Positions 31,343 through 50,958 of a DNA stretch of 64,000 bases are shown here, piece after piece. The translations under genes and the position numbers were made by a program. The stretch's first letter is position 1. Each line of letters starts with the position of its first letter. Below the pieces are notes generated by a model, which ran no database searches, had not been told where the DNA came from, and saw only the letters and a list, made by a program, of their open reading frames with translations. The stretch is from Bacteroidota bacterium (GTDB lineage: Bacteria; Bacteroidota; Bacteroidia; UKL13-3): positions 1-64,000 of the forward strand of contig JAIXSO010000052.1 in assembly GCA_027484685.1 (NCBI GenBank). The letters run 5' to 3'.

Positions 31343-31417
31343 GGAGGCATAGCTCAGCTGGTTCAGAGCATCTGCCTTACAAGCAGAGGGTCACAGGTTC
31401 GAATCCTGTTGCCTCCA
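31343..31417 (+). tRNA. tRNA-Val (anticodon TAC)
   Basis: The 75-nt cloverleaf is complete: acceptor GGAGGCA/TGCCTCC, D stem GCTC/GAGC, anticodon stem TCTGC/GCAGA with loop CTTACAA (anticodon TAC, valine), variable loop GGGTC, T stem ACAGG/CCTGT with TTCGAAT loop, and discriminator A at 31417. The 3' CCA is not encoded. It has its own consensus promoter and terminator. Confidence 0.96.
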
Positions 31418-31425
31418 CTAAAATT

Positions 31426-31461
31426 AAAAGGCTTATAAGTTCAAACTTGTAAGCCTTTTTT
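31426..31461 (+). terminator. Terminator of tRNA-Val
   Basis: AAAAGGCTTATAAGTT (31426-31441) pairs with AACTTGTAAGCCTTTT (31444-31459) with one wobble and a very short loop, followed by T. Confidence 0.8.
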
Positions 31462-31509
31462 ATTTATCTAAAGTTTGGTGTTTTATTTAGATTAGTATGG
31501 TTGGCATTT

Positions 31510-31763
31510 TCCTTTTGTTGCATGTAACGAATGACGTTCTTATTTAATTTTATATGTTAAATTAAATGACTCTAAAGGAGTCATATGTTTATAGAAAATA
31601 TATTTCATAAAACATTCGACCCCATCGGGGTCGCACCCACCAACCAATTGATGTTTGCTATAAACATTTGACCTTTTCAAGGTCAGGAATTCCTTCACTT
31701 CATGACATTGCACTTGTATCGGCTTGGGTGTGGGTTAGTAGTTTCCTTTTGTTGGTTGGAACA
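31510..31763. repeat. Multi-hairpin repeat, copy A
   Basis: This is a ~250-bp element also present at 32488-32735. It contains three short hairpins: GACTCTAAAGGAGTC (31568-31582), CGACCCCATCGGGGTCG (31617-31633) and TGACCTTTTCAAGGTCA (31669-31685). TGTTTATAG (31586-31594) and CTATAAACA (31658-31666) pair around the middle one. Both ends carry TTTTGTTGcaT/GGTTGGAAC-like words. No open frame is conserved between the copies, so it is a non-coding repeat and possibly an RNA. The gap between tRNA-Val and the first small gene holds nothing else. Confidence 0.85.
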
Positions 31764-31790
31764 AGCGGAAACTCAAAGCAACTGGGCGAT

Positions 31791-32318
31791 CTACAATATT
31801 TTTATAGTCAACTTAAACGTTCTTACAAATGTGTCTACAAGTGATTTTTTGACATTATAAGAAATCAAAAGTAAAATTGGACAAAAAATGAATAATGAAA
31901 AAAGTCCCGTTATAAAAGAATTATCATAATTAGGCAATGAGAAAATTGTAAAGAATATTATAATTAATCCGCCAAGAAAAAAAGCAAGAAACAGCAGAGC
32001 AAATGCTGAGTTTGGTTGGATTGTAACAATAATTTTTGAACCTAATTTTTCTTCTGTTATTTGCCCTTTAAGTTCTGCACTCATTCCATCAAAACCACCA
32101 ATATTTATATTACCAAATTCTACTTTATGTGTTATTATAAAGTTGTAATTTGAATCAATTTGTCCAGATAGGTTAGGTGTATGAAATACATTATTTGACT
32201 TATCGAGTATTGATTTCATTTCTTCATAAATGTCTTTTGCAGAATTCTCACTAAAGAAAATTATAGAACTTGCTGTTAAGTTTTCTTCGATAAATTTTAT
32301 TGGCTGTTTGTATTTCAT
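31791..32318 (-). CDS. Unknown protein with two C-terminal membrane helices
   Basis: The 175-residue product has a soluble N-terminal part of ~105 residues (KFIEENLTASSIIFFSENS..., IGGFDGMSAELKGQI) and two membrane helices (about 107-130 and 138-153). I recognise no family. It is the last of five minus-strand small genes in the repeat-rich island; repeat R1 ends 54 bp before its start and multi-hairpin repeat A follows its stop by ~27 bp. Confidence 0.7.
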   Translation of the reverse strand: MKYKQPIKFIEENLTASSIIFFSENSAKDIYEEMKSILDKSNNVFHTPNLSGQIDSNYNFIITHKVEFGNINIGGFDGMSAELKGQITEEKLGSKIIVTIQPNSAFALLFLAFFLGGLIIIFFTIFSLPNYDNSFITGLFSLFIFCPILLLISYNVKKSLVDTFVRTFKLTIKIL

Positions 32319-32371
32319 TAAGTTTACTAATAATTTATGAATACAAATTTATGTTATCTAAACACTTTTTT

Positions 32372-32475
32372 TGCCGATGTTAGTGTTTAGCGAAGCGTCA
32401 CCAATACCAAATTTTATATTTCAAATAACGTAATTATTTAATAAAAAACTTCTTAGTTTTTGGCTAAAGCGGTTT
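32372..32475. repeat. Hairpin repeat R1
   Basis: First of four ~100-bp copies (others 33290-33391, 33994-34096, 35104-35187). Shared parts: a hairpin GATGTTAGTG...TTTAGCGAAGCGTCACC at one end, a middle TTTCAAATAACGTAATTATT and a second small hairpin region TTAG-TTTTT-GGCTAAAG at the other end. In this copy the right arm is degenerate. Confidence 0.85.
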
Positions 32476-32487
32476 GAATTTGTTATT

Positions 32488-32735
32488 TTCTTTTTGTTGC
32501 TTGGAACGAAGTACGCTCTTATTCAAAGTTATATGTTAATGAAATGACTCCAAAGGAGTCACATGTTTATAGAAAATATATTTCATAAAACATTCGACCC
32601 CATCGGGGTCGCACCCACCAATCAATTGCTGTTTGCTATAAACATTTGACCTTTTCAAGGTCAGGAATTCCTTCACTTTATGACATTGCACTTGTACAGG
32701 TTGGGGGGGTAGTAGTTTACTTTTGTTGGTTGATG
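32488..32735. repeat. Multi-hairpin repeat, copy B
   Basis: It is very similar to 31510-31763 over ~245 bp. The middle hairpin and the TGACCTTTTCAAGGTCA hairpin are identical, and the first is GACTCCAAAGGAGTC. It lies directly beside repeat R1, filling the gap between the stop of the gene at 32802 and repeat R1. The copies differ at scattered positions, so the duplication is not very recent. Confidence 0.85.
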
Positions 32736-32801
32736 AGAGCGGACAATCGTAACTGCGCTTCAATTCACTTTATGAAATAATTCAAGACTAGCTAGGGCTA
32801 A

Positions 32802-33266
32802 TTATATTAGTTTATTTATTAAGTATACTTTAACCAAAACATACTTTTTATCTGAATTATATTTAGATGTGCCATTATAACTGTTAATTATTTCAAATTC
32901 GCATGTTTTGTTTATAATATAAGTACTCCTTAAATATAAATTTATTCTTGTAAATCCAAATGTTTTCATGTATTTTCTTCTAAATAATTTGCTTTTCACA
33001 CCATGATTAAAAATTGCTTTAGCAAAGTTGTTTGAAATGTTTTTAACTAGTTGTTTAACATCACTTTCTTGAAAAGTATCGCCTAAAATGTATAATAAGC
33101 TAAAATTTATTTTTTTTAATACTGTTTTTGATTCATACGAATCATATACATTATCATCTAATAAACAATATGTATAATATTTCCCTGAACATATATTATT
33201 ATTTTGAGCATTTAAACCATATAAAAATAAAAATAGGGTCACTTGTATTATTAAAATTTTTTTCAT
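32802..33266 (-). CDS. Small exported protein of unknown function
   Basis: The 154-residue product has a signal peptide ending GLNAQ (about 21) and a mature Lys/Asn-rich alpha/beta domain with four Cys, suggesting periplasmic disulfides. I recognise no family; NISNNFAKAIFNHGVKSKLF and YLRSTYIINKTCEFEI are the best search seeds. Repeat R2 ends 24 bp before its ATG. The word ACTAGCTAGGG lies just after its stop (32787-32797). Confidence 0.7.
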   Translation of the reverse strand: MKKILIIQVTLFLFLYGLNAQNNNICSGKYYTYCLLDDNVYDSYESKTVLKKINFSLLYILGDTFQESDVKQLVKNISNNFAKAIFNHGVKSKLFRRKYMKTFGFTRINLYLRSTYIINKTCEFEIINSYNGTSKYNSDKKYVLVKVYLINKLI

Positions 33267-33289
33267 TAGTTCTATTAATTTATTTCCTC

Positions 33290-33391
33290 TGCGGATGTTG
33301 GTGTTTAGCGAAGCGTCACCAACATCAAATTTTATAATTCAAATAACGTAATTATTCAATAAAAAACTATTTAGTTTTGGCTAAAGTGGTT
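33290..33391. repeat. Hairpin repeat R2
   Basis: The best-formed copy. GATGTTGGTG (33294-33303) and CACCAACATC (33317-33326) are perfect 10-bp inverted repeats, followed by the shared TTCAAATAACGTAATTATT and CTATTTAGTTTTGGCTAAAG. It lies between two small genes on the minus strand. Confidence 0.9.
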
Positions 33392-33526
33392 GTGCTTTGT
33401 TTTGCATTTTGTTGCATTGAACACGCCAAATGCCGTGCACTAGCTTTGCTGTATTTCAATTGCTTTAGCTAGGGACAAGCTTTGCAGAGTTTACTTGCGC
33501 TAGCTAGGTACTCACATATAAATCAA
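33392..33526. repeat. Short shared words downstream of a small gene
   Basis: TTTTGTTGCATTGAAC (about 33408) matches the ends of the multi-hairpin repeats. TTAGCTAGGGACA (33464-33476) and GCGCTAGCTAGG (33497-33508) match a word just past the neighbouring gene's stop (32787-32797). TAGCTTTGC-like words recur. This is a mosaic of repeat pieces and holds no gene. Confidence 0.55.
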
Positions 33527-33955
33527 TTACTCCATTAAATATTCTGAATTTAATACTTTTGTTTTTTTTACATTAAAAGCTAAAACACCCAAAAGTGGAA
33601 TATCTACTAAACAGGATTTGGATTCTTCCAAATATAATCCATTTACAATATAGGAATAAATATACCTATTATCTTTTAATGTATCAATTTGATCCGGAAC
33701 ACCTAAAACTTTAAATAGAATAGAAACACTTTCATTATTAAATTTATTCTCTTTTAAAATAAAATCTGTTATTATCATTCTGTCTCCATTAGCACCACAA
33801 GAATCATTTTTCCATAACTTTATTGAATTAGAGTCCAAAAATTTATTTTGACATTTAACACTAGATATTGAAAAGCCTAATATTAGCATAAACAAAAATT
33901 TAATAAAAAATTGTTTAGTAAATAAATACCTTAAATAATTAATACCTTGTTCCAT
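33527..33955 (-). CDS. Small exported protein of unknown function
   Basis: The 142-residue product has a long positively charged start and a hydrophobic leader (about 17-36) ending KCQ, so it is exported. The mature part contains ILFKVLGVPDQIDTLKDNRYIYSYIV, a pattern of LLG-PD then an aromatic strand that recalls BamE/SmpA-like small domains; this is a weak resemblance. Repeat R3 ends 39 bp before the ATG, and GCGCTAGCTAGG lies after the stop. Confidence 0.68.
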   Translation of the reverse strand: MEQGINYLRYLFTKQFFIKFLFMLILGFSISSVKCQNKFLDSNSIKLWKNDSCGANGDRMIITDFILKENKFNNESVSILFKVLGVPDQIDTLKDNRYIYSYIVNGLYLEESKSCLVDIPLLGVLAFNVKKTKVLNSEYLME

Positions 33956-33993
33956 CAGCTCTATATATTATATTCGTACAAATTCCAATATTC

Positions 33994-34096
33994 TGCCAAT
34001 GTTGGTGTTTAGTGAAGCACCAACAACATCAAATTTTATATTTCAAATAACGTAATTATTTAATAAAAAACTATTTAGTTTTGGCTAAAGTGGTTG
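33994..34096. repeat. Hairpin repeat R3
   Basis: The third copy. The hairpin arms are TGTTGGTG and CACCAACA with a shorter loop than R2, so the stem is kept although the sequence changed. The middle TTTCAAATAACGTAATTATT and CTATTTAGTTTTGGCTAAAG are identical to other copies. Confidence 0.88.
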
Positions 34097-34114
34097 GATT
34101 AGCATTTGCTCAAA

Positions 34115-34663
34115 TCAATTACATTTAATTATTTCAAATGTGTTTATAACATAAATATCATCGATTGACTTATTTACAATTAAATGAATACAATAATTAT
34201 ACTTACCATTTTTTTTAATATCGTAAACCATTTTTCCATCTACACCCCTATAATGTTTTTTACCTTTGAAAGTGTAGTAAATCCCACTTCTACCTACTCT
34301 CCCGAGATCTAAATTATCAATGGATAAAACTAACTCTTCCCTATTAGCAATTGAAAAGTATTTTACTTTAATAAAATATGGAACCAAGACTAATTCCATT
34401 AATAAAAGGCTAGTGCAGAAAGCAAATAAAATTCTTTTTAAAAATGTTAAATAGTTTTTAGAAAGAAAAAACATTTTTATTTCTTGGTAATTTACCATCA
34501 TTACCATTACAAATAGAGCAATAATAGGTAGTTTGTATTTAAATAATGAAATGCCTATCAAGCTTTTAAAAATTAGATGGTAAAGAATAAAATTAATTGC
34601 CAAAAAAGAAAATAATAAGGCATCTACAAAGTTTTCTTCAAATTTTACAAATCGTAACAACAT
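34115..34663 (-). CDS. Unknown membrane protein with four helices
   Basis: The 182-residue product has four predicted membrane helices (about 12-32, 45-60, 72-95 and nearby) and a C-terminal ~80-residue soluble domain (ELVLSIDNLDLGRVGRSGIYYTFKGKKHYRGV). I recognise no family. Its stop is 18 bp from repeat R3. The gap to the next gene (34664-34782) lacks a full repeat and shows only a possible remnant, ATTTAGCTAAGGCCATTGG. Confidence 0.65.
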   Translation of the reverse strand: MLLRFVKFEENFVDALLFSFLAINFILYHLIFKSLIGISLFKYKLPIIALFVMVMMVNYQEIKMFFLSKNYLTFLKRILFAFCTSLLLMELVLVPYFIKVKYFSIANREELVLSIDNLDLGRVGRSGIYYTFKGKKHYRGVDGKMVYDIKKNGKYNYCIHLIVNKSIDDIYVINTFEIIKCN

Positions 34664-34782
34664 GGTATAAAATTAATAATTTCTAGTTAAAATAGGTATT
34701 TTTATGAAGACAATATTTAGCTAAGGCCATTGGTTTGGCGTTCTTTTACGATAAATTATAGCCTTATTGACGAATATTAAAA

Positions 34783-35079
34783 TCAAAGTGTTTCCTCTAT
34801 CATTTTCACCTCCCCTTCCTTTTCTTTTGTGTTAATTATTTGAATAAAAATTATTCCAACTATTAATGAATATATGCAAAGCAGAATAAAAGAAATGAGC
34901 ATTTTGTTTGGATTCTTTCTGTAAACAACAATAATAGAAATTAAGTAACAAAAAGTATATAAAGCAGAAAGTAAAACGAATATAATATCACCGGCATCTC
35001 TTTGAAGAAATGCAAATATGGATATTAGCATAAACCCAATATTGATTATTATCGAATGTTTTAAAATTAGTTTAAACAT
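34783..35079 (-). CDS. Small three-helix membrane protein of unknown function
   Basis: The 98-residue product has three hydrophobic segments (about 8-25, 32-51, 59-82) and a charged C-terminal tail (KEKEGEVKMIEETL). No family is recognised. It starts 25 bp after repeat R4 and probably shares a transcript with the four-helix gene that follows. Confidence 0.65.
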   Translation of the reverse strand: MFKLILKHSIIINIGFMLISIFAFLQRDAGDIIFVLLSALYTFCYLISIIVVYRKNPNKMLISFILLCIYSLIVGIIFIQIINTKEKEGEVKMIEETL

Positions 35080-35103
35080 GATAGTTTTATTCCATCTATT
35101 TTC

Positions 35104-35187
35104 TGCCGATGTTGGTGTTTAGCGAAGCGTCACCAACATTGAATTTTTTATTTCAAATAACGTAATTGTTTAATAAAAAATCTTTTA
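35104..35187. repeat. Hairpin repeat R4 (shortened)
   Basis: The fourth copy, with hairpin GATGTTGGTG...CACCAACATT and the shared middle TTTCAAATAACGTAATTGTT. It ends at AATAAAAAAT and lacks the last ~20 bp found in R1-R3, stopping 8 bp from the stop codon of the beta-barrel gene. Confidence 0.85.
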
Positions 35188-35195
35188 CTAATCTT

Positions 35196-35708
35196 CTAAA
35201 ACTTAAAATACAATGCCGCTTCGCCTGTTACATTGTAGTTTTTAGCATTTTGGTAAAGGGCATATCCTGTCATTAAGTTAAAGCCAATATTTTTTACTAT
35301 GGTTACTTCAAATCCAAAACCTAATCCATTGTTAAAATAGGCTTCTTCCTCTTTTTTGTCGTATAAGCCATTTACTTGGTTATAGGCTGCTGAATTGCTG
35401 TTGCTGTAATAATGGTTGGCTTGGTATAAGTACAAAGCAGTTTTGTCGGTTTCCATTAATTGGTATAAAAAAGTTAGCCCCGTGCTAAACCTTGTTATAG
35501 ACTCTGATTTGTATGGAGCAAAATTAACTTGCACGCCAAATTTGTTAGGCGTATATCTGTACGAAAGGCCATAACCAGTAGTAAAACCAGCTCCAGCACC
35601 TAAGGCATGTTTGTGTTTAACTGTTTCGGTTTTTTGTGCAAAAACATTTATGCTCAATAATGATATTGAAAGTAAAATGAAGTATTTAATGGTGCGAGGT
35701 TGCTTCAT
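35196..35708 (-). CDS. Small outer-membrane beta-barrel protein
   Basis: The 170-residue product has a signal peptide ending NVFAQ and strands GAGAGFTTGYGLSYRYT, FGVQVNFAPY, STGLTFLYQLM, LGFGFEVTIV and GEAALYFKF. The C-terminal Phe fits an outer-membrane barrel of about eight strands. The exact -7 element TATATTTG lies 17 bp upstream (35725-35732, minus strand). The gene separates the repeat island from the FecA-like receptor; its role is unknown. Confidence 0.75.
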   Translation of the reverse strand: MKQPRTIKYFILLSISLLSINVFAQKTETVKHKHALGAGAGFTTGYGLSYRYTPNKFGVQVNFAPYKSESITRFSTGLTFLYQLMETDKTALYLYQANHYYSNSNSAAYNQVNGLYDKKEEEAYFNNGLGFGFEVTIVKNIGFNLMTGYALYQNAKNYNVTGEAALYFKF

Positions 35709-41549: not shown

Positions 41550-41580
41550 CTTGTTTAATTCAAGGGTTGCCATAATTTTA
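41550..41580 (+). promoter_or_regulatory. Possible promoter of the giant LamG protein gene
   Basis: CTTG (41550-41553), a 19-bp spacer and TAATTTTA (41573-41580; 7/8 match), 22 bp before ATG 41602. If correct, the TTG start at 41551 cannot be used. The rest of the 296-bp gap before the gene is very AT-rich and holds nothing else that I can see. Confidence 0.35.
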
Positions 41581-41601
41581 CAAAAAAATTTCAATTCGAT
41601 T

Positions 41602-44600
41602 ATGAATATAAAATTATACTCCAATTTTTCTTTAAAATTGATGGTAAAACTTGCCCTGAGTTTTCTGCTTTTTTTATCTTTTCAAATTGCTAAGGCTCAG
41701 AATCCCTTTTTTAATGGAAACGTAGACGTAGACACAAAATACGAAAATTGTACTGGAAAAATTACTATAAAAGTGCTCTTTTTGAGAGTTGGCTCAGGTA
41801 GTACATCCAATATGAATTTATACTACAAAAATGGCAGCGGGGTTCGAATAAAAATATTACAATTAAATAATTACAATAATGGGGGTACTAACTTCTTTGA
41901 CATGGGAAACTTTTGGTGGGTCACGTCAAATGGGGCAAATATATCACGGGGTTTTTTCAATAATAATGGTAATGATCACACGGTAGAATTTGTATGGAAT
42001 AATCCACCAGCAGATATTGTAAATGGAAGTAATCCATTTTATAACATTTCAACCGAAGGTACTTTTGCCGGTAATCCTTGGTCAATAACCGATAAAATTG
42101 TTCAATTGCCCATTTTAACGCCACCTGCCGGGTTATTCACCTCAGATGGGGTTTACTGCGATAGGGTAAAATTAGATTGGACTTTACCTAATAGTTTTCC
42201 TTGCGGCTTTAGCCAACAAGTTTATAGAAATAATCAAATTGTTGCCACCGTTGGTCCCACAGTAAATACCTATGATGATTATGGTTCAGGTTCAGGCAAT
42301 CATAATTATACAGTAAGGGCTATCCATACCCCTAGTAGCTCACCCGCTGCAATTACTACTATTCAGTCAAATCCTTCTCAGGGTTCTAAAAGACCTTCAG
42401 TAAGCGCTCCATCTGGTATAACTGCTACTGATTCTAGATGTGATGGTAAAATTTCGGTAAATTGGAGTTATTATAATAATAATCCGATTAGTTTTAAGGT
42501 TTATAGAGCAACGAGTCCAACGGGAACATTTGGTTTAGTAGGTACAGTTGATGGTGGTGAGCGTTCTTATGAAGAAAATGCACCGCAAAGAACCATATCG
42601 TATTACTATAAAGTTGCAACCGAAGGAATATGTGGTGAAACTTTATCCGGAAACTCCTACGATGGAGCTTCTCCTACTGTGCCTGCCGCCCCAACAGGTG
42701 TTTCTGCTTCTCCTAGTACTTCTACTATAACTGTTTCGTGGAATTACTCTCAAACTGATATTACTGGTTTTGTGGTAGAAAGATCATCTCAAAGTGGAAC
42801 AACCTACGAACAAATTGATAACCCTTTAGCTAGAAGTTATGTTGATGCCAATGTTTCTCCATGTGTTAATTATACTTATAAAGTACGTGCAAAAAATAAT
42901 TGTGCACCAACGGGAACTGCTTCAACCAACACTTTTACTACTAGGATTTTTCCTGTAATTAATAATTCTTTTAACGGTAATACCAATAAATTAAAATGTT
43001 CAAAAGGTTATTATTCAAATTTAGTTCAACTAGAATGGAGTACTGTTAACGTGGATGTATTAACTTCATATAGGGTTTATAGAAAAGTGTATGGTAGTAC
43101 TTCTGATTCAACCTTAATTGGATCTGCAGCAATGGGTGAAGGTGTATATGTTGATAATAATGCTATTACAGGAGTTTTATATAAATATACTTTAATTGGA
43201 GTTTTAAATTGTGCAGGTTTTACGCTTTTCTCAAACCCAACAGAGGATATAGGATTTAGAAGGGCTTTTGGAACCGTAAGTGGTCAAATAACTTACGATG
43301 GTGGCATTGCTCTGAAGGGTGCTAAAGTAAGAGTTGCACCAACAAGTTTAACATCAAGTTCAGTTGGAGCTTCTATGTTGTTCAGTGGTTCAAATAGCTT
43401 AAGTGTTCCTGCATCAAGTAAGCTATCATTTACTAACGGTGCTACTATTGAAGCTTGGTTTAAACCTTCGGATGTTTCAGGTAATAAGGATTTGATAAGA
43501 TTAACTTCAGGCTCTAAGTCAATTAGTGTTAGTTTAACAGCAAACAAAATTACTTTAACTGCAAATAATGGTTCAGATTCTAGAACAAGAACAACAACAA
43601 ATTCTCAATTTAATATTGCAGCAAATAATTATAACCAAGTATCGGCTATTTTAAGATCTGATTCGTTATTTATTTATGTAAATGGAATAGCTGCTGATTC
43701 ATTAACACTTACAGGTTTTACATACCTGCCTTTAAATACGTCATCAATTTCGATGGGAACATCGTTTGTTGGAAATTTGGACGAGGTAAGGATTTACAAC
43801 TACCCTAAACTTCGAAAAGATATTGATTTAGATTGGGCTCGCAGAGTAAGTCCAGATGATGATGGTTTAGTGGCTTATTATACTTTTGATGAAAATATTT
43901 CAAATTATAATGGATTTTTTGATTACTCAAAACAAGGCACAGTATTTAATGAAAACCACGGTACCATTTCTGGTGCAGTATTTAATAATTCTATTCCTAC
44001 TAATGATCAATTATCATTTGCAAGCTTTACCGATGAAAATGGTTTTTATGTAGTTACCTTTATAACCTTTGTTGGAGGTGGGGAATTGTTTAGAATTGCA
44101 CCTTCATTTTTAACCCATACATTTAGTCCACCTGTTAGAATTGTTTCATTAAGCGAAGGTGCTTCGGTAATTAATCAACTAGATTTTATCGATCAATCTT
44201 CATTTGCAGTATCAGGTGATGTATTTTATTATAATTCATCATGTCCGGCAGAAGGAATTTATCTTACCATTGATGGCGAAAGAGTAATAAGAAGCGGAGA
44301 GGCTGTTACAACAGATCAATTTGGTAAATTTGAAATTAAAGTTCCTGTTGGTAATCATATTATTAGAGCTGAAAAAGAAGGACATATTTTTAGTGCTGGT
44401 CGTTTCCCAACTACAGGTTTTTACGATTTCCAAAATGTAACCGATGGTATTCATTTTATTGATAGTACATTAATAAAAATTGTGGGTAGAGCTGTTGGAG
44501 GTGCTATTGAAGCCAATAAAAAAATTGGCTTAAAAAAATCAATTAATAATATTGGTAGAACAAGAATTCACTTTAAATCTCAATTAGGAAATGGCTGCAG

Positions 44601-47600
44601 CAGAATTTCAATTACTACCAATGATACTACTGGAGAATATACAGCCTACTTACCACCACTAATTTATACAGTAGATACTTTAAAAGTACTTACTAATTTG
44701 GTAGCTAATTTTGGTACACAAAGTATTTTAGATTTAACTAAGGTGGCGGGCAAGTCATTCTTTGTATCTGATACCACCTATATATCAGGTACTTCAAATA
44801 TTTCAAGAATTGATTCAACATCTTATAATATTAGAAGAGATTTTATAACCTATAATACACCTCAACTAACTTTTGCACGTATTAGAAATAAAACATTAAC
44901 AGATAGTAGTTTTATAGGTGAAAGCCAAATAATAAATGGTTCAGATACCATTCAGTTATTGCCTACAAATCCATTTCCTTATCCTATTTTTTACCAGTTT
45001 AAGGAGTATAGCGCTAGGGTTTACGCTTATGATATTTATACTAATTATGATAAAGTTCCTCCAGTACAATATAAAGTGCCTTTAGATGGAACATTAAAAG
45101 TTTACAACTCACTAGGTTCTCAACCTTCTTCTACTTCTGATTCATCTTTTTTAGAAGTTAGAAATGGGGTTACTACTTATACATTTCGAGGCGGAACACC
45201 CAATTTAACAATTAATAATAGCAACCCATCACAAAGTTTTACCAAATCAATGCAGGCAATTTTTTATACAGCAGGCAATACAGGGGTTCGCTTTGGAGAA
45301 TGGTTGCCAAATCCTGGAAATACTCCTTTTAGAGGCTATTTATTTGGAGGAAGAACAAGAGGTACCAATTTCGTAACATCTGGTCCACAAAAAGTTGATT
45401 TAATTTTAAGGGACCCTCCTGGAACTGCTAGTTCGTCTACTTGGGCTAAAAATACCAATTATACAACTATCAAACGTTATTCTAACTTAAATACTGTTGG
45501 TGGAAGTTTTATGGGAACTGTTTATTTAGGTGGTAAATGGGAAACAGGTGTGGCATTGGGTGCTTTATTTGCATTAGAATCAGAACTAGGAGGAAGTGCT
45601 GGATTTGGAGTTACTAAAGAAACTACAACAGGAAAGAATGGTGAGTTATTAGAAACCATGAGTTCTAATATCAGTATTTCAACTGGTGGTGGTTCTGATC
45701 AAGTTGGAGCTAAAGCCGACATACTTTTTGGACATTCAACCAATTATAAATTTGGATTAGCAGATAACTTAATGTTGGTGAGTGATGCCGAGTGTAGTGT
45801 TCCCGGAACAATTTGTGGTTCAACTAGTTATAATGGATATAAATTTGGTATCAAATCAAATTTATCAGTTGATCCTAGAGGAATTAATACTGTTTTTGCT
45901 TACACAGTTGGCGAGATTGAGGATATTGTAATACCTAATTTACAAAAAGTTAGAAATAGGATGATCGTTCAAAGTAAAAAAGCTAATGGTACACCTAAAT
46001 ATATTGTTAACTTTACTGATGATAATGATCCAAATTACGAAAAGAAATTTGCATCAAATAATGATGATCCAATTTGGGGAACAAGCAGAAGCGATAATAA
46101 TCCTTTAACGCAAACAGAAGCCGATAAAAGCGGTCCAAGTTATACTTTCCGTCCTGATAGAACTTTAGATATTGACTCTGTAAGATTTTACAATACTCAA
46201 ATTAAATTATGGAAAGATGCGTTGGCTAAAAATGAAAAAGAAAAATATGAAGCATTTGCCTTGAATGTTGGCAATATTTTAAATAGCGGCACCAATACGA
46301 GTATTGGTAAAGCATCTATAACTAGGGAGTTTGCGGCCACAAGAAGCAAGGAAGAAACTACTCAAGAAGAGGTTTATTTGGCGCATGATGAAGCATTTGG
46401 TTTTAAAGCAATTTCAGGCGGATCAGGTATTGAATTTGCTGGAAGTTTAACTCTTGGTGGTACAGATATGAAAGACGAAGGAAGTTCTGCAGACTCTACG
46501 GTAACAATTGGTTATACATTAAATGATGGTGATGATGGTGATTTAATTTCGGTAGATATTGTTGATCCTGGAACTGGAAATGGACATTTATTTAGATTAA
46601 CGGGTGGTCAAACGTCTTGTCCGTTTGAAGGAAAAGATTGGGCACATTATTATAAACCAAGCGATACCATTTCGTCAACAACAAGATTTGAGGATGAAGA
46701 AAGCGTTCAGTTAAGTGAAGGAACAGCGCAACGTCATGTTCCTACCATTCAAATTCCTCAGCCAGTTAAATTTAACGTGCCAGCAGACCAACCAGCTACA
46801 TTCATATTGCAATTAGGAAATCAAAGTGAGTCAGATGATGAGCAACAATATGATTTAAGAGTAATTGAGGTTACTAACCCTAATGGGGCAGTATTAACTA
46901 TTGATGGATTGGATCCTAATCGAGCATTTACTGTTCCATTTGGAACCAATATAAGTAAAACATTGAGTATAAAACGCGGAACAGAGTATTATGATTATGA
47001 CAGTATTTTATTAGTATTGAAATCACCTTGTGATGACGATATTGTTGATTCTGTTTATGTTTCTGTTCATTTTATTCCAACATGTACTTCTCCATTGGTT
47101 TATAACCCAGGCGATAAATGGACTTTAAATACTAGTTTTAAAGATACCATGAATGTGGTAATTTCAGGTTACGATTACAACTTTGGTGGATTTAAAAATA
47201 TTTCATTCCAATATAAACCATCATCAAGTTCAAGATGGAATATTTTAGAAACTTTCCATAAAGTACCGGATTCAACTCAAGTTGAAATACCTACGCTTAG
47301 ACCATATATTGAATATGCTTGGACTATGCGCCAACTTCCTGATGGTCCTTATGATATTAGAGCAGTAAGTACTTGTTCTGCACCTGGTCATCCAGATGCT
47401 GTTAAAGAATCGGAAGTAAGCAGTGGTTTGGCTGATAGGGTTAATCCTAGTCCTTTTGGAAATCCATCACCTGCTGATGGCATTTTATCGCCAAACGATG
47501 AAATTCAAATTCAGTTTAATGAGCCTGTAGACAATGCCTCGTTAAGTTTCCAAAACTTTGATATAAGAGGAGTTTTAAATGGAAGCGCTTTGCAAAATAC

Positions 47601-50600
47601 AGCTAGTTTGTTTTTTGATGGTGATAATGATTTTGTGGAGATTCCAACAGGATTGAACTTAACCAAAAAATCATTCTCATTAGAGCTTTGGGCTAGAAGA
47701 AAAACTTTGGGAACTGAACAAGTAATTTTCTCTCAAGGTATTGATTCTGCTCAATACATGGCAATAGGTTTTGATGCTGAAAACAAATTCTATTTTAGAA
47801 TTGGCAACGAAAAAATTAGAGCCAATTTAGCCATGACCGATACATTAACATTCCATCATTATACTGTATCGTTTAATTTTGATCAAGACTTGTGTCAATT
47901 GTTTACCGATGGAAATGTTTCTAATACAGGTAACACCAGAATTTATAATAATTATGAAGGCGGAGGTAAAACCTTTATTGGAAAATTAGCTCAAAATAAC
48001 GGTAATTTCTTCAATGGTAATTTGCGAGATTTTAGACTTTGGGGAAAAACAAGAACATCAGTTGATATATTAACATCTATCAACCAAAGTTTGAAAGGAA
48101 CTGAAGCAGGTATTATGGCTAATTGGAGATTAGATGAGGCGAACGGAACTGAAGCTAAAGATTATGTGAGGTCACGACATGCAACTATTCGTAACGCAGT
48201 TTGGCAAATTTCACCTAAAGGCCGTTCGTACAGAATTAATAACGAGCCATTGGCTGTTAACGCTGCTGATATTGCTTTCTCATTTGAAACTGACTTTACA
48301 ATTGAGTTTTGGTTTAAAGGAGCAAATACACCTAACAAAGTGGCGTTGTTCTCAAATGGCAGAGGCGACTCTACTGATGTTAATCCTGGAATTAAATGGA
48401 GTATTGAAAAAGACTCCATTGGAAGGATTTTTATTAAACACCGAGGGTTAAATTTTGAAGCAGTATCTGATAATTATTTCGATGGAAATTGGCATCATTT
48501 TGCTTTAGTAATGCAACGTTCAACAAGTATAGCTGCATTTATTGATGGTAATTTACAAAAAAGTACTTACCCTGCCGAGTTTAAAGAATTTGGTGGCGAT
48601 AAGTTTTGGATTGGTGCAAGAGCATATCAAAATATAAGTTCTACAGTTTTAGATAGAACATTTAACGGTTATATTGATGAAGTAAGAATTTGGAATTCAG
48701 CAAGAACTCAATCACAAGTAAACAGAGATAGGGTGAATCGCTTGGCTGGAACCGAAACTGGATTAGTTTTCTATTTACCATTCGAAACTTATACTTTAAA
48801 CCTTGGTGTTCCTATTTTAACGCCTAGCGTTTTAGATATGAAAAACAGCGCTAGGTTAATAACAGGAGTAACTGCATTAGGAAGCGGATTAAGCGATGAA
48901 ACACCAACTATTAAGTTACAACGCCCAGTTCAATCTATTAACTTCAATTACTCAGTAAATCAAGATAAAATTATTTTAACGCCTACCACTTTACCAGAGT
49001 TAATTGAAAATGTTACTTTAGACGTAACTGTAAAAGACGTTTATGATTTAAATGGTAATAAAATGCAATCGCCAAAAACATGGATAGCTTATGTAGATAA
49101 GAACCAAGTTAAATGGCAAGATCAAGATTTTGATTTTAATAAAAAAGCAGGTGAAGCCCTCACATTTACTAGTAATATTGTAAATTCTGGTGGAGCTTTA
49201 AAACAATTTAATATTCAAAATTTACCACCTTGGCTTTCTGCCAATCCTGCTTCGGGAACAATTTCGCCTAATAGTTTTAAAACTATTACATTTACTATTG
49301 ATCCTAATGTGAACATTGGAAGCTATGAAAATGAAGTACAATTGTTAACCGACTTTGGATATCCTGATGGGTTATTAGTTAAATTAAAAGTGTATGCTCC
49401 TATTCCTTCTACTTGGACAGTTAATTCTGCTAATTTCCAAAATAGTATGAGTATAGTTGGTCAAATTAGAATTAACAATGTTATTTCAACAAATCCTGAT
49501 GATAAATTAGCTGTTTTTGTAGATGGCGTTTGCAGAGGTATTTGTGGATTACAATACTATCCTCAAATTGATAGATACTATGCATTCTTGAATGTTTACA
49601 GCAATGCTTCTCAAGGCGAAACCTTAGAATTTAAAATTTGGAATGCTGGTGAAGGTAAAATTCATTCAGATGTAACACCTAAAATTCAGTTTTTAACCAA
49701 CGGACAAATAGGAACAATTAGCAATCCGCAAATATTTAATGCCAGTGATAAATTAACTCGTTATATTCCATTAGCAACTGGTTGGAACTGGATTTCTTTC
49801 AATTTGAGTATGAAAGACTCTAGTGATATCAATAAATTGTTTAGAGGAATAACAAGTGGTAATGGCGATATTTTTAGAAGCCAAACTATGTTTGCTGATT
49901 ACAGTGTTCTAAATGGCTGGGCAGGAAGTATAGCTAACCCAATGGTGGGTGTGAAACCTGAAATGTCTTACAGATTAAGAAGCTCTGTTGTTGATACTTT
50001 AGCTATTTCGGGTGTTGAAATTGATCCTACTACAAGACCAATTAGAATTGATTCTGGTTGGAATTGGTTAGGATTTATTTCGCAAAGAAATTTAAGTGTT
50101 GCTGAGGCCTTCTCTTCACTAAGTGCCACAAGTGGCGATTTAATTAAGAGTCAAAATCAGTTTGCTTTGTATGATGTAAATATAGGATGGGTAGGAAGTT
50201 TAACAGCCTTAACACCTAATAAAGGTTATATGTATAGAGCTGGTGCAGGAAGTGTTTTTGCATATCCAAAATCAGCTATGTTTGGAAAAACTGCTGTTGA
50301 TGTAAATAATTATAATAGTAACTACTTCAAATTTGATGCAACTAAGTTTGAAAGGAATATGAGTGCTGTAATTGATGCAGGAGCTTGTAACAGTGCGCTA
50401 TCTAATGGTAGATTAAGTTTAGGTGCTTACAGCAATGGTGAATTAAGAGGAGTAACCAAAGTATCTACTTTAGACAATGGTAAAAATCTTTATTTCTTAA
50501 ATATTTCTTCAAATACCAACGATGAAAAAGTAAGCTTTAAATTACTGGATGAAAAAAATGGTAAAACTTACGAATTATTGGGTGATATGAATTTTGATGC

Positions 50601-50958
50601 TAACAAATTAGTAGGTTCAATTTCAAGTCCATTCAATTTAAAAGTATCAACTACGTTTAATTGTAATGATTTTTCTTCTAACTTAACCAATGGATTAAAT
50701 GTATTTGTTTATCCTAATCCGTTTAGTACCAATATTGTGTTAAATGTACAAGGTATAAATTCACCTAAAGTTCAAGTGAATGTAGTTGATATTACAGGAA
50801 AAGCAGTTGATAATTTTGAACAATCAACCCTTGGAAATACCAATATTAATATAGATTGGAATCCTGCAGATAGAGGAGTTTCTTTAAAACAAGGAGCCTA
50901 CTTCATTGAAGTTTTAGCTGGAGACCAAGTTGTTAGAGCTAAAGTAATCAAATACTAA
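41602..50958 (+). CDS. 3118-residue T9SS surface protein with nested LamG domains (type A CTD)
   Basis: The signal peptide ends AKAQ. I chose ATG 41602 since the longer TTG form adds a non-leader stretch. Order: a unique N-terminal beta domain; fibronectin-III domains (to about 550); a carboxypeptidase-regulatory-like domain split by a LamG domain (about 555-830); a second such domain (SGDVFYYNSSCPAEGIYL); a long unique middle (about 960-1830); an Ig-like domain (SPADGILSPNDEIQIQFNEP) split by two LamG domains (about 1995-2410); a module shared with the next protein (about 2610-2720); two GWNW repeats; and a type A sorting domain (VFVYPNPFSTNIVLNVQG to the end). It is exported by the T9SS to the cell surface, probably to bind glycans or cells. 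Confidence 0.9.
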   Translation: MNIKLYSNFSLKLMVKLALSFLLFLSFQIAKAQNPFFNGNVDVDTKYENCTGKITIKVLFLRVGSGSTSNMNLYYKNGSGVRIKILQLNNYNNGGTNFFDMGNFWWVTSNGANISRGFFNNNGNDHTVEFVWNNPPADIVNGSNPFYNISTEGTFAGNPWSITDKIVQLPILTPPAGLFTSDGVYCDRVKLDWTLPNSFPCGFSQQVYRNNQIVATVGPTVNTYDDYGSGSGNHNYTVRAIHTPSSSPAAITTIQSNPSQGSKRPSVSAPSGITATDSRCDGKISVNWSYYNNNPISFKVYRATSPTGTFGLVGTVDGGERSYEENAPQRTISYYYKVATEGICGETLSGNSYDGASPTVPAAPTGVSASPSTSTITVSWNYSQTDITGFVVERSSQSGTTYEQIDNPLARSYVDANVSPCVNYTYKVRAKNNCAPTGTASTNTFTTRIFPVINNSFNGNTNKLKCSKGYYSNLVQLEWSTVNVDVLTSYRVYRKVYGSTSDSTLIGSAAMGEGVYVDNNAITGVLYKYTLIGVLNCAGFTLFSNPTEDIGFRRAFGTVSGQITYDGGIALKGAKVRVAPTSLTSSSVGASMLFSGSNSLSVPASSKLSFTNGATIEAWFKPSDVSGNKDLIRLTSGSKSISVSLTANKITLTANNGSDSRTRTTTNSQFNIAANNYNQVSAILRSDSLFIYVNGIAADSLTLTGFTYLPLNTSSISMGTSFVGNLDEVRIYNYPKLRKDIDLDWARRVSPDDDGLVAYYTFDENISNYNGFFDYSKQGTVFNENHGTISGAVFNNSIPTNDQLSFASFTDENGFYVVTFITFVGGGELFRIAPSFLTHTFSPPVRIVSLSEGASVINQLDFIDQSSFAVSGDVFYYNSSCPAEGIYLTIDGERVIRSGEAVTTDQFGKFEIKVPVGNHIIRAEKEGHIFSAGRFPTTGFYDFQNVTDGIHFIDSTLIKIVGRAVGGAIEANKKIGLKKSINNIGRTRIHFKSQLGNGCSRISITTNDTTGEYTAYLPPLIYTVDTLKVLTNLVANFGTQSILDLTKVAGKSFFVSDTTYISGTSNISRIDSTSYNIRRDFITYNTPQLTFARIRNKTLTDSSFIGESQIINGSDTIQLLPTNPFPYPIFYQFKEYSARVYAYDIYTNYDKVPPVQYKVPLDGTLKVYNSLGSQPSSTSDSSFLEVRNGVTTYTFRGGTPNLTINNSNPSQSFTKSMQAIFYTAGNTGVRFGEWLPNPGNTPFRGYLFGGRTRGTNFVTSGPQKVDLILRDPPGTASSSTWAKNTNYTTIKRYSNLNTVGGSFMGTVYLGGKWETGVALGALFALESELGGSAGFGVTKETTTGKNGELLETMSSNISISTGGGSDQVGAKADILFGHSTNYKFGLADNLMLVSDAECSVPGTICGSTSYNGYKFGIKSNLSVDPRGINTVFAYTVGEIEDIVIPNLQKVRNRMIVQSKKANGTPKYIVNFTDDNDPNYEKKFASNNDDPIWGTSRSDNNPLTQTEADKSGPSYTFRPDRTLDIDSVRFYNTQIKLWKDALAKNEKEKYEAFALNVGNILNSGTNTSIGKASITREFAATRSKEETTQEEVYLAHDEAFGFKAISGGSGIEFAGSLTLGGTDMKDEGSSADSTVTIGYTLNDGDDGDLISVDIVDPGTGNGHLFRLTGGQTSCPFEGKDWAHYYKPSDTISSTTRFEDEESVQLSEGTAQRHVPTIQIPQPVKFNVPADQPATFILQLGNQSESDDEQQYDLRVIEVTNPNGAVLTIDGLDPNRAFTVPFGTNISKTLSIKRGTEYYDYDSILLVLKSPCDDDIVDSVYVSVHFIPTCTSPLVYNPGDKWTLNTSFKDTMNVVISGYDYNFGGFKNISFQYKPSSSSRWNILETFHKVPDSTQVEIPTLRPYIEYAWTMRQLPDGPYDIRAVSTCSAPGHPDAVKESEVSSGLADRVNPSPFGNPSPADGILSPNDEIQIQFNEPVDNASLSFQNFDIRGVLNGSALQNTASLFFDGDNDFVEIPTGLNLTKKSFSLELWARRKTLGTEQVIFSQGIDSAQYMAIGFDAENKFYFRIGNEKIRANLAMTDTLTFHHYTVSFNFDQDLCQLFTDGNVSNTGNTRIYNNYEGGGKTFIGKLAQNNGNFFNGNLRDFRLWGKTRTSVDILTSINQSLKGTEAGIMANWRLDEANGTEAKDYVRSRHATIRNAVWQISPKGRSYRINNEPLAVNAADIAFSFETDFTIEFWFKGANTPNKVALFSNGRGDSTDVNPGIKWSIEKDSIGRIFIKHRGLNFEAVSDNYFDGNWHHFALVMQRSTSIAAFIDGNLQKSTYPAEFKEFGGDKFWIGARAYQNISSTVLDRTFNGYIDEVRIWNSARTQSQVNRDRVNRLAGTETGLVFYLPFETYTLNLGVPILTPSVLDMKNSARLITGVTALGSGLSDETPTIKLQRPVQSINFNYSVNQDKIILTPTTLPELIENVTLDVTVKDVYDLNGNKMQSPKTWIAYVDKNQVKWQDQDFDFNKKAGEALTFTSNIVNSGGALKQFNIQNLPPWLSANPASGTISPNSFKTITFTIDPNVNIGSYENEVQLLTDFGYPDGLLVKLKVYAPIPSTWTVNSANFQNSMSIVGQIRINNVISTNPDDKLAVFVDGVCRGICGLQYYPQIDRYYAFLNVYSNASQGETLEFKIWNAGEGKIHSDVTPKIQFLTNGQIGTISNPQIFNASDKLTRYIPLATGWNWISFNLSMKDSSDINKLFRGITSGNGDIFRSQTMFADYSVLNGWAGSIANPMVGVKPEMSYRLRSSVVDTLAISGVEIDPTTRPIRIDSGWNWLGFISQRNLSVAEAFSSLSATSGDLIKSQNQFALYDVNIGWVGSLTALTPNKGYMYRAGAGSVFAYPKSAMFGKTAVDVNNYNSNYFKFDATKFERNMSAVIDAGACNSALSNGRLSLGAYSNGELRGVTKVSTLDNGKNLYFLNISSNTNDEKVSFKLLDEKNGKTYELLGDMNFDANKLVGSISSPFNLKVSTTFNCNDFSSNLTNGLNVFVYPNPFSTNIVLNVQGINSPKVQVNVVDITGKAVDNFEQSTLGNTNINIDWNPADRGVSLKQGAYFIEVLAGDQVVRAKVIKY

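Follow-up and report, generated by a model that had tools for sequence, protein, structure and literature searches.

A window of 64,000 nucleotides from a Bacteroidota bacterium of the UKL13-3 lineage (contig JAIXSO010000052.1, positions 1 to 64,000, here C53) carries five small co-oriented genes on its minus strand, set apart by copies of a repeat of about 105 nt. This block is probably a cassette array that lacks toxins, consists of orphan immunity genes and forms part of the Rhs polymorphic-toxin cassette system of the genome. The five genes are separated by a spacer that elsewhere precedes genes for a toxin plus its antidote; therefore the array most likely stores antidotes to the toxins of rivals, with its own toxin genes gone. 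Orphan-immunity arrays are best described from gut Bacteroidales. Here the orphan genes and the Rhs toxin cassettes of one genome have their spacers in common, which provides a direct historical link from toxin arrays to immunity arrays and points to a testable source for the orphan genes.

The repeat (family D1) is a composite of two parts. Part A is a terminator-like palindrome followed by a promoter-like stretch, and part B is a hairpin that resembles repetitive extragenic palindromic (REP) sequences. Four copies, which match the reference copy at 77-92%, lie on the minus strand of the window: spacer R1 (32370-32474, hairpin 32379-32405), spacer R2 (33288-33392, hairpin 33297-33323), spacer R3 (33992-34096, hairpin 34001-34027, with an altered stem) and spacer R4 (repeat match 35102-35206, spacer 35102-35188, hairpin 35111-35137). 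When part A copies were aligned, they showed the palindrome AACCGCTTTAG-CCAAAAA-CTAAAGCGGTT, then T6, then an AT-rich stretch up to the ATG of the toxin cassette. The intact palindrome folds at -14.2 kcal/mol (z -4.6). It is broken in the window copies: that of spacer R1 is degenerate, and spacer R4 has lost the left arm, its leftmost bases overlapping the end of gene 35196. We therefore rejected the window spacers as working terminators. The following stretch is called promoter-like by its position and its AT-rich, TTTG-containing sequence only, because a sigma-70 promoter scan gave no excess over shuffles; the sigma-70 pattern is not that of Bacteroidota. In an array of the closest relative, G003 (contig C10), the palindrome core of the first spacer (L071 2909-2974) is inverted (TTTAGTTTTGGCTAAA).

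Part A is the spacer of Rhs toxin/immunity cassettes. On contig C61 of the same genome it precedes a series of genes that start MHLTNFHFYNNKNYLYSKPVKGLQG...YGFxFNGKE. Two of these were scanned, and both contain the RHS-associated core domain (TIGR03696, Rhs_assc_core; E 1e-10 and 1e-13). Most of the Rhs genes on C61 have a small gene behind them, which mostly encodes an exported or membrane protein. Searches with E-value limits gave 43 clustered matches to part A in the genome itself. Two close relatives have 24 and 19 matches, three others have 4-5 each, and three further congeners have none. When it occurs alone in relatives, part A forms clusters with a spacing of about 1-2 kb. Sorted by the open reading frame (ORF) that follows, the fetched copies lead into an Rhs gene (25), a recombinase gene (2), a small gene (32) or a large gene (1); classed by leader sequence, 27 lead into an Rhs cassette. 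These figures count copies read rather than independent events, and a few loci overlap. The displaced or "orphan" Rhs tip cassettes of this genome share the spacer of the window and run in the order toxin tip, then immunity gene, whereas the array in the window has no toxin tip.

The form of the spacer that carries the hairpin behaves differently. It was found in none of the 27 spacers with an Rhs leader. It was found in 10 spacers elsewhere, four of them in the window, and none has a toxin behind it. The simplest reading is a single origin of this form, as a spacer without a toxin, and later copying of it to positions before different immunity-like genes.

Gene 32802 (32802-33266, minus strand) links the array content to toxins. 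Its 154-aa product has a signal-peptide-like start and aligns over 142 columns, at 39% identity (E 3e-17), with the product of a C61 gene (L070 1020-1499) whose start lies 12 nt after an Rhs tip gene. The same tendency is seen for toxin-less small genes behind spacers in general. Of 29 such genes, five have a match among the 78 genes that lie immediately behind Rhs genes, compared with 0 of 137 control ORFs (Fisher p = 1.2e-4). We infer that all five window genes encode immunity proteins against toxins of kin or competitors; homology supports this for one gene.

Homolog searches across the family covered genes 31791, 32802, 33527 and 34115. Gene 31791 (31791-32318, minus strand; 175 aa) encodes an alpha/beta N-terminal domain and two predicted membrane helices, and is a putative orphan immunity gene. 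Its relatives, in two congeners, are a lone gene in genome G005 (48%) and a gene in a spacer array of G006 (25%). Gene 33527 (33527-33955, minus strand; 142 aa, exported) has a weak homolog (33%) behind a part A spacer on contig C42 of G006. Gene 34115 (34115-34663, minus strand), which encodes a 182-aa membrane protein and has no spacer of its own, has no homolog in 64 genomes of the family. Gene 34783 (34783-35079, minus strand) encodes a 98-aa membrane protein. All five products, of 98-182 aa, contain membrane or signal-peptide-like segments, and the genes have a GC content of 20-27%. The structure predicted for the product of gene 31791 (predicted local distance difference test score, pLDDT, 70) gave weak and inconsistent PDB matches, none at E <= 0.001. 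That for gene 32802 had a pLDDT of 44 and was not used.

The five genes and four repeats reported by the first-pass annotation are real, and every element was found where it had been placed. The short word CTAGCTAG also lies behind the stops of genes 33527 and 32802, as that annotation said. Its picture of five genes interleaved with four repeats needs one change. There are only four repeat-headed units, the first of which has two genes, because the gap of 119 nt from gene 34783 to gene 34115 contains no repeat. A spacer precedes four of the five genes, and the intergenic gaps are 116-483 nt.

Several results weigh against the orphan-immunity interpretation. A clear toxin-linked homolog was found for only one of the five genes, 32802. 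Three of the five orphan genes that match the post-Rhs set look MORN-repeat-like, and those matches are therefore less specific. No Pfam or NCBIfam family was found above the cut-off for any of the five window genes, and no immunity family was recognised among them. The window showed no remnant of an Rhs gene, and contig C53 has no recombinase (no PF00589 match). Finally, 31 of the fetched part A copies have no ORF on the same strand within 300 nt.

The shortage of toxin-linked homologs also favors a different explanation, in which the block is an ordinary hotspot where unrelated small genes and dispersed REP-like or terminator-like repeats have gathered beside a tRNA gene and are functionally unconnected to toxins. 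The distribution of part B fits this as well. When the genome was searched with one copy of the repeat, about 32 places were found, most of which match the hairpin half only. This half reads GTTGGTGACGCTTCGCTAAACACCAAC, then GGCA or GGGC. Three copies surround a broken Y1 transposase gene at C63:117855, which resembles REP-associated tyrosine transposases (RAYT); the genome has 15 Y1_Tnp matches. Like the repeats of REP/RAYT systems (PMC2817692, PMC3733652), part B is a short palindrome that is dispersed outside genes and is accompanied by a related Y1 transposase. It differs in that the foot of the stem has no GTAG or CGTC tag, the 3' neighbor being GGCA or GGGC, and in that only a moderate copy number was found. 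Its flanks read GATG...CATCGGCA or CTTG...CAAGGGC. In addition, the block is AT-rich and lies next to a tRNA gene at a synteny break. However, part A occurs mainly as an Rhs cassette spacer and is clustered in arrays, gene 32802 is related to a toxin-linked gene, and immunity homologs are enriched among the toxin-less genes behind spacers. We consider the hotspot explanation unlikely.

These results also change the role of the hairpin. The first-pass annotation treated its arms as a recombination element, but the hairpin is a separate REP-like repeat that is dispersed over the genome, and the part linked to cassettes is the AT-rich half. Its observation that the stem is kept in spacer R3 holds only in part. 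The best-folding copy reaches -14 kcal/mol (z -3.9), whereas the copies at 34001 (spacer R3) and 32379 fold more weakly, with z values of -1.5 and -0.9.

To place the block, we compared it with relatives at both flanks. None of the relatives that yielded a conserved flank has the block (31467-35196). Its right flank is a tRNA-Val (tac) gene (31343-31418, plus strand), the only match in an Rfam scan. It adjoins an AsmA-like gene and is kept in all relatives examined. In six relatives the AsmA-like gene and the tRNA gene are conserved and the block is missing. Homology ends in or just past the terminator of the tRNA, a terminator-like palindrome on its 3' side (31419-31466, no strand). At the other flank, that of a TonB receptor gene, the block is likewise absent in six relatives, and the TonB receptor gene has differing neighbors there. 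The left flank of the array is gene 35196 (35196-35708, minus strand), which encodes a conserved exported protein of 170 aa (97% identity in G003). In G003 homology extends to the stop codon of gene 35196 and no further, and the next gene encodes a 1143-aa protein. In G006 that gene adjoins the tRNA; the array therefore lies at a synteny break. The block has a GC content of 27%, compared with 31-33% in its flanks. Since relatives lack the entire block whichever flank is compared, and since the repeat is the spacer of Rhs cassette arrays in the genome and the genus, the earlier description of a cassette-like array is supported. Spacer arrays (window 31467-35196; L071/L083, L156/L162, L103/L154) repeatedly have one common flank only between close relatives. 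Such arrays may be rearrangement hot spots.

Two kinds of locus that resemble the array have been described. Zhang et al. 2012 (PMC3482391) reported toxin-less polyimmunity loci, sometimes beside XerC/D genes, as well as displaced toxin cassettes. Polyimmunity loci are known from Bacteroidetes and have small intergenic distances, so that each is likely a single operon (PMC3482391). Both they and the window array consist of tandem co-oriented immunity-like genes without toxins, and both vary between close relatives; in our case the whole block is absent from congeners. In contrast to polyimmunity loci, the window has gaps of more than 100 nt in place of short operon gaps. It is built of repeat-headed units, each with its own terminator/promoter-like spacer that is shared with the Rhs cassettes of the same genome, and contains no recognised Imm family.

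The second kind is the recombinase-associated acquired interbacterial defence (rAID) array of Bacteroidales (PMC12247911). In it, a recombinase accompanies short co-oriented orphan-immunity genes, which protect against effectors of other bacteria and have conserved motifs between them. The authors of PMC12247911 describe the way in which rAID arrays arise as a subject of current research. The window genes are likewise co-oriented, short and low in GC, and with 98-182 codons and 20-27% GC they fit the values for rAID genes (~100-300 codons, <41%). A conserved intergenic motif is present in the window too, which is not to say that its sequence is the same. In contrast to rAID arrays, no recombinase lies at the array, and the recombinase pair of this genome is on contig C61. 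Furthermore, the window falls outside the lineages reported, its spacer is traced to Rhs cassettes, and a REP-like hairpin has been added. The array resembles polyimmunity loci and rAID arrays and lacks one defining feature of each, namely short gaps and a linked recombinase. Because both kinds of locus have already been described, the proposal in the first-pass annotation that the array could be of an undescribed kind is too strong for the array itself.

If the array is a store of orphan immunity genes, its spacers suggest how it may work. Within part A, each spacer joins a terminator-like stretch that closes one cassette to a promoter-like stretch that opens the following one. Elsewhere in the genome and the genus, this sequence stands in front of displaced Rhs-core toxin tips. 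In the array, part A leads through the REP-like hairpin directly to a gene for a small exported or membrane protein, which takes the place of the toxin tip. Part A may transcribe the genes one by one. The array would grow by recombination between repeated spacers, either homologous or by tyrosine recombinases of the toxin arrays acting in trans. Homologous recombination between tandem immunity genes has been documented in type VII secretion system (T7SS) clusters (PMC9484751). It would suffice to grow such an array.

The first-pass annotation also suggested looking for a tyrosine recombinase near other copies of the repeat, and a recombinase pair does adjoin other copies of the spacer. These two adjacent genes, named recombinases R1 and R2 (distinct from spacers R1 and R2), lie among Rhs cassettes on C61 (L070 9764-11554) and on three contigs of G003. 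The spacer precedes the pair in three cases: on C61 and on contigs C72 and C63 of G003. With catalytic residues assigned by eye, the expected ones are invariant in recombinase R1 of seven relatives. In recombinase R2 the first catalytic arginine and the box II histidine are missing in all seven. A scan of 84,980 genomes gave 26 close relatives of recombinase R1 (L164-L189), all from Bacteroidota and all with an R2 gene behind. They include metagenome-assembled genomes labelled Flavobacterium, Chryseobacterium, Chitinophagales and Crocinitomicaceae. An Rhs gene was present within the fetched flank at 23 of the 26 loci and at none of 53 control loci; the control loci are shorter on average, and this contrast is therefore only indicative. 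Five of the 26-locus genomes had contributed to the Rhs profile. When these five and G003 were excluded, Rhs was found at 15 of 18 loci, and the three exceptions are contigs of 6-7 kb. In this family, the Rhs cassettes on the two sides of the recombinase pair are oppositely oriented (L070, L150, L151, L152 and L163). At their ends, contigs L070 and L150 have inverted copies of the cassette start that are nearly identical, which may mean an invertible toxin switch.

In phages and plasmids the recombinase has only distant relatives, including one on plasmid pAT2 of Aureibacter tunicatorum (L196, NZ_AP025307.1, 8826-17002). An element of 8,169 bp is present there in two tandem copies and carries an Rhs tip, a small gene, a helix-turn-helix gene, a primase-like gene and an R1/R2-like pair. 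Within the rhs core motif YGFNGKE, its junctions fall at the Y-G-F codons (Y-G-F|NGKE), with the 8-bp sequence TATGGATT at each. The apparent old tip, annotated as polymorphic toxin type 47, is displaced downstream, behind the end of the element. In the B1(2017) genome, the homology of the full-length rhs gene to displaced tips starts at the same Y-G-F codons. This suggests that recombinases of the R1/R2 type insert new tips into rhs genes. Judging from the constant leader of the cassettes, the same insertion may have taken place in the genus of the window. Rhs tip exchange is usually explained by homologous recombination. The recombinase pair instead suggests exchange by site-specific integration into the rhs core. 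In the literature we found no report of tyrosine recombinases inserting Rhs tips, in a search limited to open-licence papers.

We tentatively consider whether the window array is a toxin-less by-product of such tip-swapping, a possibility that falls somewhat short of being probable. The pair would put a tip/immunity element precisely into the rhs core codons, and the old tip with its immunity gene would be pushed downstream behind the constant leader. Repeated rounds would give old toxins in order and in the end only immunity genes, so that past weapons and antidotes would be stored in order of time. On the Aureibacter plasmid the recombinase-in-rhs step can be read to the base, and the linkage of R1, R2 and Rhs at 23 of 26 Bacteroidota loci supports it. 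The connection to the window is the shared spacer only. Our confidence in the role of the recombinase pair is lower than in the orphan-immunity reading.

The recombinases could also act on the core of part A (AACCGCTTTAG-CCAAAAA-CTAAAGCGGTT) and move the small genes in the manner of an integron, which would make the array actively mobile. The core does have the geometry of a tyrosine-recombinase site, with 11-bp arms and a 6-7-bp spacer. A recombinase gene itself lies behind such a spacer in several contigs, and at some loci homology between species stops at the core. On the other hand, the core with TTTTTT is equally a textbook intrinsic terminator, its palindrome is broken in the window, and the junctions of the Aureibacter element lie in rhs core codons and not in a terminator. 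Active mobility of this kind is quite improbable. Classical integron gene cassettes, which also consist of small co-oriented genes with repeats between them, are far less probable still and were rejected, since no integron integrase in the genome reaches the family cut-off (TIGR02249). The best matches are without the model segment of about 180-238, and the attC layout was not seen in the repeats. The first-pass annotation had already said that the arms are not integron attC sites by consensus.

The first-pass annotation did not include the tRNA-Val gene beside the array, the independent distribution of the two halves of the repeat, or a duplicated block of about 270 nt. This block is common to the regions downstream of genes 31791 (copy 1, 31498-31774, minus strand) and 32802 (copy 2, 32480-32748, minus strand), with 169 nt at 94% plus flanking matches (repeat families D2, D5 and D8). 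It contains palindromes such as TGACTCCTTTGGAGTCA and GACCCCGATGGGGTC, and a similar sequence lies behind spacers in another array (L083 4579-5077). Elsewhere in the window, 41551-50958 is a very large open frame of 3135 aa, whose product looks exported and multi-domain and has a C-terminal sorting-like end.

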